From Collinsella bouchesdurhonensis (lineage in GTDB: Bacteria; Actinomycetota; Coriobacteriia; Coriobacteriales; Coriobacteriaceae): DNA of 64,000 nt. The position numbers were made by a program, and so were the translations under genes. Positions 11,836-25,762 of this stretch are shown here, piece by piece (positions within the stretch are counted from its first letter, which is position 1; every line of letters starts with the position of its first letter). A model generated the notes under the pieces. That model had not been told where the DNA came from. It worked only from the letters and a program-made list of their open reading frames with translations, and searched no databases. The stretch is taken from the NCBI RefSeq assembly GCF_900155365.1, contig NZ_LT699743.1, positions 312,219 through 376,218 of the forward strand, written 5' to 3'.

Positions 11836-14019
11836 CTATTCGGTGTGACGCACGCGCACGGCCCCCCGCACGATACACTTGCTTATGCCATAGGTAAGCG
11901 CAAAGTAGCCACCATAGGCAAAAAGAAAGACCGTACAGATAAGACCCACGGTACCACCGATATCAAACCCGCCAAAAAGCAATACCACGCTAATGATCAC
12001 CCGCAGCGCGACCAGCGAATGTGCCAGACCGACACCCAGCGGGAAGAAAAAGAGCACCGCCTGCTGCAAAAGAATCGAATGGTCGATAGCCAGCCTATCG
12101 CATCCCACCTCAGAAAGCACGCGGACGCTCTTGGAAGAATCGGCCACGCTTGAGAGCTGCTGGATGGAAATGATAGCCGCACAAGCAATTACCAGCACAA
12201 AACCGATGTATATGCAAAGATAGCTAATCATGCCGTTCATGCCATCGGTTTGCTCGATCATCTCGTTGCGATTGAGCGAGTTGCCCCAAAAGCCAATATT
12301 GGAGCCATCGTTCTGGTAAACATTCGTACCGATACCGATTCCAGCATCATTCAAGGAGGACAAATCTGCAAACTCGGCATCGATCTTCTGGGCATCGGCC
12401 CCATCCTTGTAATTGACCAACAGCGAGCTGTACTGCAGGGCAAATCCCATCTGATCCACAACCGCATCGGGCAAAACCACGGTGCCGGAATTTAGACCCA
12501 ATGCCGAATTGCAAAAAGCCCCCGCCTGCGGATCGATTTTGTCCGCCCCTGGAACAAGTGTCTTGCCGCCCAGCGTGATCGTCGTGCCAGCAGAAAGAAT
12601 GCTATTGAACATGTCATCAAGCGTATCGCCCATATCGCAGGTGATGAGATACTGATTGTCCGCCAGATGAAGTTGGTCAAAACCACGAAACGCCAAATAC
12701 TTGTTGTAGTCGCTAAGCTTAACGACGGGAATACCCTGATACATGACGGTAGCTTCGTCCATGCCCGCCGGCAACGTTGTTTTTGAACGACGAATTAAAT
12801 CGTCGAGTAGGATCGAAGGGTCTTCTTCACCCGCAGGAACCGAAGAATAGATATCGACCTGTTGGACGCCCTTGGCAATCTTTGCGAAATCGACGCCCCG
12901 CTCCTCCAGCGCCGCCTGCATATCGTATGGCTCACTCGGCATAACGCCCTTCGTTATCTCGCCATCTTCGCTCGATTCGACGAACTCGGAGTTGTTGTAC
13001 ATGACGTTGCAGGAAAAATCGGCCGGCGTGCAGCGAAGAAGGCTCGCGTTCATAGCGCTTGCAATAGACATGCCGCAGGTAACCGACGTAATTGCAAAAA
13101 ATAGGATCATCGCGATGATTGCCATGGACATCGAGATGGTATTGATCTTTGCTGCCAGCTGACGCACGGTAAACATATTGAGGCCGCGCCAGTACACTTT
13201 GCGCATGGTCTGCAAAAGCTTGAGAAGCAGTCCCGAAAGTCCAAAGAAAAAGGCAACCGTGCCCACGGTCACCATGAGCGTAGTGATTCCAAAACGCCTC
13301 ATGGCAAAATCAAGCTGGCCTACCGGAGCAGTAAGCGGCAGGCCGTCGTGCAAAAGGCGGCAATATGCCCAAATGATCAGCGCAAGGCCAACCAAGCAAA
13401 TGATGCCCGACAACAGGGGGTTTCTGGTTTTGATGCTCTCGTGTCTGCGCTCGGCGCCCATGAGGTCCACAAGCTTGACGCGTACCACAACACGCAGGTT
13501 GAGCAGCAGCGTCACCACAAAGATCGCGACAAGGCAGCCTATCGTTATAAACAGAGCGCTCGGCGAGATAAAGAAATGGAAATTCGAAATCTGGGTTTTA
13601 AAGAGCGATGCGGTAAAAAACACCATGAGCTGCGAAAGGGCGATGCCGCAGATGATGCCAAGTACAAGTGCCGCCCCCGAAACGATAAGCGTCTCATAGG
13701 CCATTATGCGCGCCACCTGTCCGCGCGTCATTCCCAATACCTGGTACAAACCAAACTCGCGCTTACGGCGCTTCATGATGAAGTTATTGGCATAGACCAT
13801 CAAAAAGCCCATAACGGCCGCAAGGAAGATGGTGAGCCTGGAGAGCAGCTCGGACATGATCTCGCGCATGCCGGCAGTCTTGATGCCCGCAATATCAACC
13901 TGCAGTGAAATCGTATTGAAGGCATAAAAGACCGTCACGCCCAAAGCGAGCGTAAGCAGATAAATGAGGTAGTCGCGACTGGCGCGTCGAACGTTTCCCC
14001 AGGCGAGTTTACAAAGCAT
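11836..14019 (-). CDS. FtsX-family ABC transporter permease (BceB-like)
   Basis: 727 aa. Several N-terminal membrane helices are followed by a large extracytoplasmic domain (about residues 330-590) and further C-terminal helices, the layout of BceB-type peptide-sensing or exporting permeases. The N-terminus reads [20 protein letters not shown], typical of FtsX-like permeases of this group. ATG 14019 is preferred (GAGGTG close upstream); it overlaps the end of the ATPase gene by 11 bp, so translation is coupled. The usual BceRS two-component pair is absent nearby. A role in export of, or resistance to, antimicrobial peptides is a family-based guess. Confidence 0.85.
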   Translation of the reverse strand: MLCKLAWGNVRRASRDYLIYLLTLALGVTVFYAFNTISLQVDIAGIKTAGMREIMSELLSRLTIFLAAVMGFLMVYANNFIMKRRKREFGLYQVLGMTRGQVARIMAYETLIVSGAALVLGIICGIALSQLMVFFTASLFKTQISNFHFFISPSALFITIGCLVAIFVVTLLLNLRVVVRVKLVDLMGAERRHESIKTRNPLLSGIICLVGLALIIWAYCRLLHDGLPLTAPVGQLDFAMRRFGITTLMVTVGTVAFFFGLSGLLLKLLQTMRKVYWRGLNMFTVRQLAAKINTISMSMAIIAMILFFAITSVTCGMSIASAMNASLLRCTPADFSCNVMYNNSEFVESSEDGEITKGVMPSEPYDMQAALEERGVDFAKIAKGVQQVDIYSSVPAGEEDPSILLDDLIRRSKTTLPAGMDEATVMYQGIPVVKLSDYNKYLAFRGFDQLHLADNQYLITCDMGDTLDDMFNSILSAGTTITLGGKTLVPGADKIDPQAGAFCNSALGLNSGTVVLPDAVVDQMGFALQYSSLLVNYKDGADAQKIDAEFADLSSLNDAGIGIGTNVYQNDGSNIGFWGNSLNRNEMIEQTDGMNGMISYLCIYIGFVLVIACAAIISIQQLSSVADSSKSVRVLSEVGCDRLAIDHSILLQQAVLFFFPLGVGLAHSLVALRVIISVVLLFGGFDIGGTVGLICTVFLFAYGGYFALTYGISKCIVRGAVRVRHTE

Positions 14020-14821
14020 CGGACACCTCGCCGCCCATAATGGCAACTACATCCATGATGCGGTTGAAAAACGCCTGACGCGAATCATCGCCACGACGCA
14101 ACTCGGTAAAGATGCGACCATCGCGAATGAACAGCACGCGATTGGTATAGCTCGCTGCATAGCCGTCGTGCGTCACCATGAGCACCGTTGCATTATAGGT
14201 ACGATTGAGGTTCTCGAAGTTCTCCAACAGCATGCGAGCGTTCTTGGAATCGAGGGCGCCCGTGGGTTCATCGGCCATAACCAGCTTGGGGTTTGTCACC
14301 AAAGCGCGCGCAGCAGCCACACGCTGCTGTTGGCCACCGGAAAGCTGGAAGGGGTATTTATCCAGTACATCGGAGATATTGAGGCGTGCAGCCATCTCCT
14401 GCACGCGCATGAGCGTCTCGTCAGCAGAAAGACGCCCGATGGTTAGCGGCAGCGCAATGTTCTCGCGCGCTGTAAGGGTATCGAGCAGATTTGAATCCTG
14501 GAAAATAAAGCCCAGCTGTTCGCGGCGGAACTTTGCAAGCTTTGCGTTCTTAATTTTCGTAACGTCTTGGCCGTCCACGAAGATACCGCCGCTCGTCACG
14601 GCATCGATGGTAGAAACGCAGTTGAGCAGTGTCGACTTGCCGGATCCCGAGGCACCCATGATGCCCACGAACTCGCCGGTTTCCACGATAAACGAAACAT
14701 CGTTGAGTGCCCGTGTCACAGCGCCACGAGAACCGTATACCTTCTCGATATGGTTTACTTCCAAAACGGGCGGTGCGCCAACGCGCACGCTGTTCGCCTG
14801 TGCCGAAAACACTGGGGACAT
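14009..14821 (-). CDS. ABC transporter ATP-binding protein (BceA/LolD type)
   Basis: 270 aa. It has a complete nucleotide-binding domain: Walker [11 protein letters not shown]-loop FIFQDSNLL, signature [15 protein letters not shown], Walker [11 protein letters not shown] and the switch His in VTHDG. A C-terminal tail of ~40 residues follows. Start is ATG 14821 with AAGGAG 8 nt upstream; a GTG 9 nt earlier overlaps that site. It powers the permease encoded by the overlapping downstream gene. The subfamily (MacB/LolD/BceA) fits the FtsX-type partner. Confidence 0.92.
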
Positions 14822-15043
14822 CGTATCCACTCCTTAGAATCAGCTTTCATCGTACGCCAAGAAACAGGGCATATGCTCGCTATCTATAGTCGTTTCTTAA
14901 GGAGCGGGGCGCCATCGATTTGGCTTACAAGGCCCTTGCACTTTTGTAAGACAGCACGGCGCGCCCACTTGCATGCACGCCCCTTCGGGTAGAAAATAAC
15001 CGCATCAAACTCGATCAACATACCGCAAAGGAGACCGCCACCT

Positions 15044-15997
15044 GTGAAAACCGTGCATGTAGCCGCCGGCATCATTCGCAATCCCCAGGACAACTCGGTA
15101 CTTGCCGTCCAGCGCGGTTACGGAGACATGCAAGGGCTTTGGGAGTTTCCCGGCGGTAAGGTGCAGCGTGGAGAAACCGCCTACGACGCCTGTATCCGCG
15201 AGCTACAAGAAGAGCTCTGCGTCGAGGTGCACAACCTACGCGCCTTCTACACGGTTGAATACGATTATGAGGCGTTTCATCTATCCATGGAGTGCTTCTT
15301 TTGCGATATCGCGCGCGGAAAGGTTTCTGCCGCCGATCAGCAAAAGGCTATCCGCTGGGTGCCGCAGCGCTCGCTCGCAGACCTCACGTGGATGCCCGCC
15401 GATGTCGAACTCGTTCGCGCACTCATCGCCGCCGCAAAGGCAACCGATATCGCCCGCAAAATTCCCGATGCGGACCTGGAGTCCCCTGCCCCCAAGCGGC
15501 CATCATCCGCCAAAAAGCGCACGAAGAAAAGCCTGGTAGACACCTTAGATACACAAGGACTTTCTGCAAGCGAGACCGAACTCGTGCGTCGACGCGCCGC
15601 CATCAAAAAGTCCATGCAGGGCAACAAGCGCGCCAATACCAAACCCGAGATGCTCGTGCGCCAGCGTCTGCGCCAAGCGGGCCTCACGGGCTATCGCCTG
15701 CAGTGGAAAAAAGCCCCCGGCAGGCCGGACATCGCCTTTCCCGGCCGCAAGGTCGCCATCTTTGTCAACGGCTGTTTTTGGCACCGCTGCCCACACTGCA
15801 GCCCCAGCGTACCTAAGCGAAACGTCGAGTTTTGGGAAGCGAAGTTCGCACGCAACGTCGCACGCGATGCCAAGGCACAAGCAGAACTCGCTAAAGCCGG
15901 CTGGACGAGCATCGTTATCTGGGAATGCGAACTCAAGCGCGATCGCATCGACCAGACAATGGAACGCGTTATCGACACCGTTCGCTCGGCACGGTAG
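15044..15997 (+). CDS. Nudix hydrolase (MutT-like) fused to a Vsr-type mismatch endonuclease
   Basis: 317 aa with two repair-related domains in one frame. Residues ~1-130 are MutT-like: the Nudix box runs from GGKVQRGE through RELQEEL, with Cys replacing the last conserved Gly. Such domains remove 8-oxo-dGTP from the nucleotide pool. Residues ~185-317 match Vsr endonuclease: NTKPEMLVR, GRPDIAFPGRKVAIF with the catalytic Asp, NGCFWHRCPHC with the zinc/catalytic Cys-His set, and the late IVIWECEL Cys. Vsr nicks 5' of T in T:G mismatches made by cytosine methylation. A Lys/Ser-rich linker joins the two. Start is GTG with AAAGGAG ~10 nt upstream. No cytosine methyltransferase is present nearby. 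The fusion has no internal stop or frameshift. Confidence 0.88.
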   Translation: MKTVHVAAGIIRNPQDNSVLAVQRGYGDMQGLWEFPGGKVQRGETAYDACIRELQEELCVEVHNLRAFYTVEYDYEAFHLSMECFFCDIARGKVSAADQQKAIRWVPQRSLADLTWMPADVELVRALIAAAKATDIARKIPDADLESPAPKRPSSAKKRTKKSLVDTLDTQGLSASETELVRRRAAIKKSMQGNKRANTKPEMLVRQRLRQAGLTGYRLQWKKAPGRPDIAFPGRKVAIFVNGCFWHRCPHCSPSVPKRNVEFWEAKFARNVARDAKAQAELAKAGWTSIVIWECELKRDRIDQTMERVIDTVRSAR

Positions 15998-23564: not shown

Positions 23565-25580
23565 CTACATGAGCTCGCAGACGCTTGCGGCAAACGCCAC
23601 GGGGTCCTCGGGAAGAATGCCCTCGACCAGCAACGCCTGGTCATACAGAAGGCCGGCGTACAGCTTGATCTTCTCGGCATCGCCTGCCTCGTTTGCAGAA
23701 ACGAGCTTCTTAAAGACGGGATGCTTTGCATTGAGCTCAAGCACTCGCTGGCTCTTGGGCATGCCTTCGGCCTCCGCGGACGGATCGCGGCGCAGCACGC
23801 GCTCCATCTCCAGCGAAAGCGGACCCTCGGTAGTAATGCAAGCGGGAGCATCGGTCAGGCGCGCAGAAACAGCCACCTTCTCGACCTTATCGCCCAAGGC
23901 CTCCTTCATCGCCGTGAAAAGCGACTCGTTCTCCTTGGTAGCCTCCTCGGCATCCTTCTTCTCGTCCTCGGTCGCAAGGTCAAGATCGCCCGTTGCAACG
24001 TTTTTGAGTTCGAAAGTACGGTCCTCGGTCTCGGGCTCGGCGCCGTCGGCCACCGCTTTCTCAGCAGCCTCACGGGCGGCATCGTCCTCGTAGACCTTGG
24101 GCAGATCATGGGCATGGTAAGAACGCATGGCCTGGAAGGTAAACTCGTCGACATCGGCCGTGAGCAGCAAGACGTCGTACCCGCGGGCAAGCACGCCCGT
24201 CACAACAGGCATCTTAGACAGACGCTCGCGCGAATCGCCAGCAGCATAGTAGATAGCCTTTTGATCGGCAGGCATCGCCTTGGCATACTCAGCCAGCGTG
24301 ACCATCTTCTGCTCTTTGGCGCTGTAGAACAAAAGCAGGTCGGCGAGCTCGTCTGCCTTCATGCCATAGCTCGAATAGATACCGTACTTAAGGCCACGAC
24401 CAAAGTTCTCAAAGAACTTCTCGTACGCCTCGCGATCGTTATCGCGCATATCCTCCAGATCGGAAGAGATCTTCTTCTCCACGCGCTTGGCAATGGCTCG
24501 CAGCTGGCGATTTTGCTGCAGAGTCTCGCGGCTGATGTTGAGCGAAACGTCGGCAGAGTCGACCACGCCACGCACGAAGTTGAAGTAGTCGGGCAGCAGA
24601 TCGGCGCACTTCTCCATGATCAGCACGTTGGAGCTATAAAGAGAGAGGCCTTTCTCGTAATCCTTGCTATACAGGTCAAACGGTGCACGACCAGGGATAA
24701 ACAGCAGAGCATCGTACTCGAGCGTACCTTCCGCATGGAAAGAAATGGTGCGCGCCGGGTCCTCGAAATCATGGAACGTGCTCTTGTAGAACTCGTTGTA
24801 ATCCTTTTGCTCCACGTCGGAGGCGTGCTTCTTCCAGATGGGAGTCATGGAGTTGACGGTCTCGAGCTCCTCATAATCCTCCCACTCGGGCGTATAGTCG
24901 TCGCCAGCGTCCTCGGGCTTGGGCTTCTCGCGATGCTTGGTAACCATCATCTGGATGGGGTAGCGCACATAGTTGCTGTACTGCTTGATCAAGTTCTTGA
25001 GGCCCCACTCGGACAGGTAGGTGTCAAAGCCCTCGCCGTCTTCGCCGCCCTCGTCCTCGCGGATCGTCAGAATAACATCGGTACCGTGGGTGGCGCGCTC
25101 GGCGGGCTCGATGGTGTAGCCCTCAAGGCCGTCACTCTCCCACACGTTGGCTTCGTCGGAACCAAAAGCGCGGCTCACAACGCGCACACGGCTCGCTACC
25201 ATGAAGGCAGAGTAAAAGCCCACGCCAAACTGGCCGATGATGTCCACATCGTTGCCCTGGCTCTCGGCATTCTCGGTCTTGAACTCCTGGCTGCCGGAAT
25301 GGGCGATGGTACCCAGGTTCTTCTCCAGCTCCTCGGCAGTCATGCCAATGCCGTTATCCGAAATGGTGAGCGTACGATTGTCCTTATCAAAGGAGACGCG
25401 GATGGCAAGATCGGCACTGTCGATATCCACGTCATTATCCGTAAGGCTCTTGAAGTTGAGCTTGTCCACAGCGTCGGAAGCATTGGAGATAAGCTCGCGC
25501 AGGAAGATCTCTTTATTGGTATAGATGGAGTTGATCATCAGATCGAGCAGCTTTTTGCTCTCTGTCTTGAACTTGCGCAT
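23565..25580 (-). CDS. htpG: Molecular chaperone HtpG (Hsp90)
   Basis: 671 aa. An ATP-dependent Hsp90 chaperone of the cytoplasm. The N-terminal ATPase domain shows the family motifs: EIFLRELISNASDA with the catalytic Glu and nucleotide-binding Asn, DNGIGM, and GQFGVGFYSAFMV. Middle and dimerisation domains follow, with the middle-domain Arg segment LNISRETLQQNRQL. The linker near residues 230-260 is short and acidic. ATG 25580 has GAAAGGA 7 nt upstream; the frame extends 19 codons further without a site. Flanked by a large hairpin downstream and a MITE-like element upstream. No HspR or CIRCE operator is evident. Confidence 0.97.
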   Translation of the reverse strand: MRKFKTESKKLLDLMINSIYTNKEIFLRELISNASDAVDKLNFKSLTDNDVDIDSADLAIRVSFDKDNRTLTISDNGIGMTAEELEKNLGTIAHSGSQEFKTENAESQGNDVDIIGQFGVGFYSAFMVASRVRVVSRAFGSDEANVWESDGLEGYTIEPAERATHGTDVILTIREDEGGEDGEGFDTYLSEWGLKNLIKQYSNYVRYPIQMMVTKHREKPKPEDAGDDYTPEWEDYEELETVNSMTPIWKKHASDVEQKDYNEFYKSTFHDFEDPARTISFHAEGTLEYDALLFIPGRAPFDLYSKDYEKGLSLYSSNVLIMEKCADLLPDYFNFVRGVVDSADVSLNISRETLQQNRQLRAIAKRVEKKISSDLEDMRDNDREAYEKFFENFGRGLKYGIYSSYGMKADELADLLLFYSAKEQKMVTLAEYAKAMPADQKAIYYAAGDSRERLSKMPVVTGVLARGYDVLLLTADVDEFTFQAMRSYHAHDLPKVYEDDAAREAAEKAVADGAEPETEDRTFELKNVATGDLDLATEDEKKDAEEATKENESLFTAMKEALGDKVEKVAVSARLTDAPACITTEGPLSLEMERVLRRDPSAEAEGMPKSQRVLELNAKHPVFKKLVSANEAGDAEKIKLYAGLLYDQALLVEGILPEDPVAFAASVCELM

Positions 25581-25762
25581 ATACGCATCCTTTCGCTTTG
25601 ACGGCGCCCGAAAAACAGCCCGACAGGCGGGCCGCATCAGACCTCATACGTTGAGACTTAGATTTTATATCCCAACATCGCGCATATATACGTTGCCAGT
25701 CTATTTTTTGCATAAAGCAAGGATGGAGAGGCGATAAGCTTCTTCAAAACAACCGGTCGCCG

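Follow-up and report, generated by a model that had tools for sequence, protein, structure and literature searches.

What would a cell do with one protein that carries a Nudix hydrolase of the MutT/NudG type at one end and a Vsr-type mismatch endonuclease at the other, when no cytosine C5 methylase stands beside its gene? Such a gene lies in a window of 64 000 nt (the whole stretch of DNA analysed here), in the genome of a gut actinobacterium that we assigned to the genus Collinsella from named relatives, 57–68% identical.

The Nudix–Vsr fusion is real and more than a chance junction. In the protein, Pfam places NUDIX at residues 5–125 (1.7e-17) and Vsr at residues 186–248 (1.4e-18), and the Vsr half passes the NCBIfam model TIGR00632 vsr (110.1 bits, cut-off 97.85). 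Of 43 genus genomes, 42 have the two halves within a single frame, 31 of them with one full-length match and 11 with two same-frame matches. The original prediction of one uninterrupted frame joining the two domains was confirmed, and no frameshift dividing it into two genes was seen in close relatives. An AlphaFold2 model built with 46 sequences has a mean pLDDT of 91.6, the linker being its least certain stretch (about residues 140–200; pLDDT 62–83 at about residues 140–180). Of 11 other genomes sampled in the family, 9 also have the fusion; in the class sample, genera g1, g2, g3, g4 and g6 of the family carry it, while g5 has an unfused Vsr. The RefSeq label of one Collinsella copy is ‘vsr’ only, which hides the fusion. 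In the open-access literature on Vsr with Nudix, orphan Vsr and Collinsella mismatch endonucleases we found no apparent description of this architecture, and neither Vsr nor endonuclease occurs in a survey of the Nudix clan (PMC5389931).

Table 1. Features of the fusion gene and its surroundings (window coordinates)
Feature	Position	Strand	Remarks
Nudix–Vsr fusion gene	15044..15997	+	317 aa, GTG start, single uninterrupted frame
Probable ribosome-binding site AAAGGAG	15027..15033	+	Read from the sequence
Nudix (MutT/NudG-type) domain, residues 1–131	15044..15436	+	E44, R52, E53, E56, E57; D120 at the presumed base-recognition place
Linker, residues about 140–180	15461..15583	+	Length and sequence vary
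Vsr domain, residues 181–317	15584..15994	+	E202, D229, H247, D275; C244, C249, C252, C295; N242
ABC transporter ATPase	14009..14830	-	Kept next to the fusion in relatives
ABC transporter permease	11836..14046	-	Kept neighbour in relatives
HtpG-like gene (name presumed)	23568..25643	-	Follows the fusion in the gene order of several relatives; in the window at a distance of 8 kb

Both halves are under purifying selection: dN/dS in nine pairs was 0.03–0.21 for the Nudix half and 0–0.09 for the Vsr half (one pair saturated). Some of these pairs had no PF00145 match (C5 methylase) in either genome, and the low Vsr values there indicate that the Vsr half is maintained where no C5 methylase is found. 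No LexA-like boxes were detected upstream of 15 fusion genes (the window and 14 relatives). The genus exception, G024, has a Nudix only (L181 8842-9219; GC 0.48), about 50% identical to that of the window; it occupies the usual interval of the fusion with its orientation reversed, so that a plain loss of the Vsr half is unproven. In another genome (G120, L151 8498-9954) unfused Nudix and Vsr genes are divergent and about 0.7 kb apart.

Two unrelated housekeeping enzymes could share a polypeptide for the sake of expression only, with no functional coupling. The variable linker would fit such an arrangement, and so would the unfused Vsr of sister genus g5 and of families f2 and f3, as well as the Vsr-less Nudix that G024 retains in the same neighbourhood with its orientation reversed. 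Yet the fusion has been kept in nearly the whole genus, and it has an independent counterpart in a rumen Prevotella (L032), where a short linker joins Nudix to a Vsr from a different branch of the tree; the architecture has therefore arisen at least twice. We regard an expression-only union as unlikely.

The residues of the Vsr half agree with the first description only in part. The active-site Asp residues are present (D229, D275); the metal set, earlier said to be an intact Cys/His set, consists of four Cys and no His (C244, C249, C252 and C295), and E. coli Vsr has His at the second of these places. Presumably these Cys act as zinc ligands. Against the structure of Vsr bound to DNA (1cw0) the Vsr half gave Z 16.9 over 136 residues with an rmsd of 2.7. 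In the alignment E202, D229, H247 and D275 correspond to E25, D51, H69 and D97, the active-site residues of E. coli Vsr as listed in PMC12907096. The fusion thus has the fold and these four residues in common with E. coli Vsr (TIGR00632, PDB 1cw0); it differs in having a Nudix domain, no adjoining C5 methylase, Asn (N242) in place of H64, Cys for one metal-site His, and a host cell without MutS or MutL. According to PMC12907096, Asp stands at the H64 place in Caulobacter VsrA and in Neisseria Vsrs of broad specificity, a situation that N242 recalls, yet methylase-linked Vsrs also carry Asn there (32 of 37 rows). The same paper describes VsrA as another Vsr-like gene unlinked to its methylase; unlike the fusion, VsrA has no Nudix domain, and Caulobacter has MutS. 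Judging from the family, the Vsr half of the fusion would nick T:G mismatches.

The Nudix half has a complete catalytic box (E44, R52, E53, E56 and E57; E..RE..EE), invariant in all 25 Nudix rows aligned. Cys as the last box residue had been singled out as special; the position, C59, turned out to be variable, with Q, C, A, D, H, N or G in 15 fused proteins. As to specificity, the matches to the equivalog models TIGR00586 mutt (86.7 bits, cut-off 97.9) and NF007834 NudG (68.4 bits, cut-off 156) are both under the cut-off. D120 aligns with Asn119 of E. coli MutT and Asp118 of NudG, residues which we assume to sit at the base-recognition place, while one fused relative (L146) has Asn there. Structural matches include 3r03 (Z 18.7), MutT with 8-oxo-dGMP (Z 17.9) and MutT2 with 5m-dCTP (Z 17.7). 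With E. coli MutT, an enzyme for 8-oxo-dGTP, the fusion shares the Nudix fold and the box, but it is 27% identical and has Asp instead of Asn119. Fold and box are likewise common to the 5-methyl-dCTP hydrolases MutT2 (Mycobacterium smegmatis), NudG (E. coli) and 3GWY (Bacteroides fragilis), of which NudG and 3GWY also have Asp at the D120 place; these are stand-alone proteins, whereas the Nudix of the fusion is joined to Vsr, and the identity is only 28–34%. A comparison of scores put the Nudix of the window at about equal distance from MutTs and 5-methyl-dCTPases, and the Nudix tree, with its long branches, left the placement of the fusion unresolved and gave no answer on the substrate. Two Nudix proteins were found in the genome itself; the fused one is the sole MutT/NudG-type, and the other we take, from its position and sequence, to be ADP-ribose-pyrophosphatase-like. 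From the mutt match, 8-oxo-dGTP is a possible substrate.

Another candidate substrate leads to a narrower explanation, in which the Nudix half would clear 5-methyl-dCTP and the Vsr half would mend T:G mismatches arising by deamination of 5-methylcytosine, with no part in general repair; the protein would then serve transient C5 methylases and restriction-modification genes, or deal with methylated DNA acquired in the gut. We consider this explanation somewhat unlikely. D120 agrees with NudG and disagrees with MutT, and MutT2 with 5m-dCTP and 3GWY are among the structural neighbours, the latter a measured 5-methyl-(d)CTPase (kcat/Km 4.8e6 with 5-Me-dCTP, 6.7e6 with 5-Me-CTP; PMC5158307). In addition, Nudix genes near Vsr in Bacteroidales are strongly 3GWY-like (L018, 2.3e-28), and the close Nudix occurs together with Vsr in 6 of 8 Bacteroidales genomes, compared with 22 of 141 others (p=6e-4, or 0.002 when the centre genome is excluded); the initial Bacteroidales loci were picked by a combined score and are biased for that reason. 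The evidence is weakened by the scores of the Nudix of the window, which are not higher with 5-methyl-dCTPases than they are with MutTs, by the lack of resolution in the tree, and by the Asn of the fused L146. An operon link in Bacteroidales was also considered and rejected: among 149 genomes adjacency was seen only in the centre genome, G212, and the pair in G340 is 6.4 kb apart.

Membership of the fusion in an anti-phage or restriction-modification module appears very improbable. The PADLOC models do respond to it, PDC-S07 with 134.5 bits on the Nudix half and the Vsr nickase model with 64.7 bits, but PDC-S07 matches E. coli MutT (130.7) and NudG (147.3) about equally, the gene occupies a stable core site, and none of the phage records spans 80% of the fusion protein. 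In view of these MutT and NudG matches we set PDC-S07 aside as a marker of defence; its calls may be housekeeping Nudix genes.

How far, then, is Vsr tied to C5 methylases in these bacteria? The cytosine methylase, predicted to be absent, is indeed missing beside the fusion, but the genome does encode one: the check proposed at the time, a search of the genome for a 5mC methyltransferase, gave a nearest PF00145 match about 130 kb away (G000:C15:196421-197656). Near 196–199 kb of that contig (L133 1480-4188, minus strand) a 903-aa frame combines a MutH-type domain with a C5 methylase, apparently a one-frame restriction-modification gene; we presume a likeness to Sau3AI. PF00145 matches in frames of similar length were seen in several other genus genomes, and 29 of 43 genus genomes have a PF00145 match. 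Within the genus, only in G042 did we see the fusion immediately adjoined by a C5 methylase frame, on the same strand (G042:C1:73885-76140).

We drew a class sample of 197 genomes evenly, 114 in the order Coriobacteriales and 83 outside it. What is new is that Vsr is near-core in the order and lies mostly far from C5 methylases. TIGR00632 Vsr was found in 97 of the 114 order genomes (G175, slightly below the cut-off, and G166, with a broken Vsr, included) vs 25 of the 83 others. No PF00145 match was seen in 26 of the 97, while all 25 Vsr genomes outside the order have one; by coordinate comparison, no more than 2 kb separates Vsr from a C5 methylase in at least 23 of these 25, and inside the order in at least 2 of 97. 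In G166 the Vsr pieces are about 39 kb apart (G166:C2:3216286-3255591) and other sampled members of its genus have a whole Vsr, so that the gene looks broken by insertion or rearrangement.

The order genomes lacking PF00145, together with the strong purifying selection among such genomes, count against a role confined to 5-methylcytosine. On the other hand, the C5 methylase of the genome studied here and those found in 71 of 97 Vsr-plus order genomes favour such a role. Among Vsr-minus order genomes only 5 of 17 have one, and this excess with Vsr agrees with an ordinary methylase-linked Vsr and speaks against a core antimutator.

A Vsr tree of 117 rows and 126 columns placed the fused Vsrs of Coriobacteriaceae in one clade (99/97). 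Most Vsrs of f2 and f3 fell into two clades, one with 100/99 and one, containing a single f2 row, with 97/92; they lie among Vsrs that are methylase-linked, from deep Coriobacteriia and from other phyla, and the backbone is weak. The Vsr gene of f2 and of f3 has its own conserved neighbours. We read the Vsr of the order as a restriction-modification companion that probably became a resident chromosomal gene.

Resident Vsr genes are found against an unusual repair background. MutL (PF01119) was found in none of the 197 class genomes and MutS_I in one, by searches positive in 11 of 14 control genomes; the one exception, a Collinsella-group genome, has an odd 3249-aa frame matched twice by the MutS_I profile (G006:C11:111334-113181), with no match in the other 196. 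A search for NucS, positive in 7 of 14 control genomes, yielded no full-length protein in the order; NucS_C gave weak matches in 32 of 197 class genomes, 9 of them above the cut-off and nearly all partial, and the match in the genome studied here (20.5 bits) is under the cut-off of 24. This agrees with PMC5290159, where all analysed Coriobacteriia are without NucS and MutS–MutL and further pathways may await discovery. NucS/EndoMS resembles the fusion in its possible role, a mismatch endonuclease in actinobacteria without MutSL; it is a different protein, with weak partial matches only in these genomes.

We compared GC content in DNA samples from the order, with 20 genus genomes represented by single loci of about 2.5–4 kb; Vsr-minus G044 and G189 (contigs of 2.2 and 0.6 kb) were left out and G166 was kept apart. 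At the genus level Vsr-minus is AT-richer (22 Vsr-plus vs 10 Vsr-minus genera, medians 0.637 vs 0.503, p=8e-4, a statistic that ignores ancestry). The same direction was observed, again with ancestry ignored, in f2 (7 Vsr-minus vs 14 Vsr-plus, p=0.004) and f3 (7 vs 11, p=0.003), and in f1 the Vsr-minus G024 has GC 0.479 vs 0.575–0.661 in 36 genomes. In a re-analysis of 75 genomes, with G035 left out, the link persisted among genomes with a methylase (p=3e-4), among those without (p=0.02) and among the 27 genomes of up to 2.2 Mb (p=0.002), while the presence of a methylase showed no link with GC (p=0.67). There are counter-examples, G126 and G204, both Vsr-minus with GC of 0.66–0.67. The AT-richness of Vsr-minus genomes fits a lost T:G-to-C:G repair activity, and we take these contrasts as leads, not proof. 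A footprint of the E. coli VSP type was rejected: Vsr-plus genomes do have the lower CTAG values (0.35 vs 0.61), but in either group no tetranucleotide is rarer than CTAG, and its contrast ranks only 39th of 136; CTTG, CTAGG and CTTGG showed no contrast between Vsr-plus and Vsr-minus genomes.

The explanation that we favour, tentatively and at a little under even chances, is that the fusion is a core chromosomal antimutator enzyme combining cleaning of the nucleotide pool with T:G nicking. The Nudix half would hydrolyse a non-canonical dNTP (5-methyl-dCTP-like or 8-oxo-dGTP) ahead of its use by the polymerase; the Vsr half would nick the T strand at a T:G mismatch, after which polymerase and ligase would restore C:G. 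In Coriobacteriales Vsr has been uncoupled from C5 methylases and would serve as standing T:G repair without MutS, MutL or NucS, and in Coriobacteriaceae it has been fused to the sanitiser, so that one protein would work both before and after replication. Action of Vsr beyond a single methylated motif is suggested by its retention without methylases. Besides the methylase excess among Vsr-plus genomes, the fusion adjoining a methylase frame in G042 and the Asn equivalent to N242 in methylase-linked Vsrs argue against a core antimutator.

One may go further and speculate that the domesticated Vsr of Coriobacteriales is the long-sought T:G mismatch-repair replacement that helps to hold these genomes GC-rich, its repeated loss leading to AT drift and the Coriobacteriaceae fusion being an upgrade with a sanitiser; this proposal we hold to be quite unlikely as a whole. 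A near-core, methylase-independent Vsr, fused to a sanitiser in one family, is a concrete candidate for a further mismatch-repair pathway, the existence of which PMC5290159 leaves open. If the antimutator explanation is true, a companion gene of restriction-modification would have turned into a housekeeping repair enzyme.
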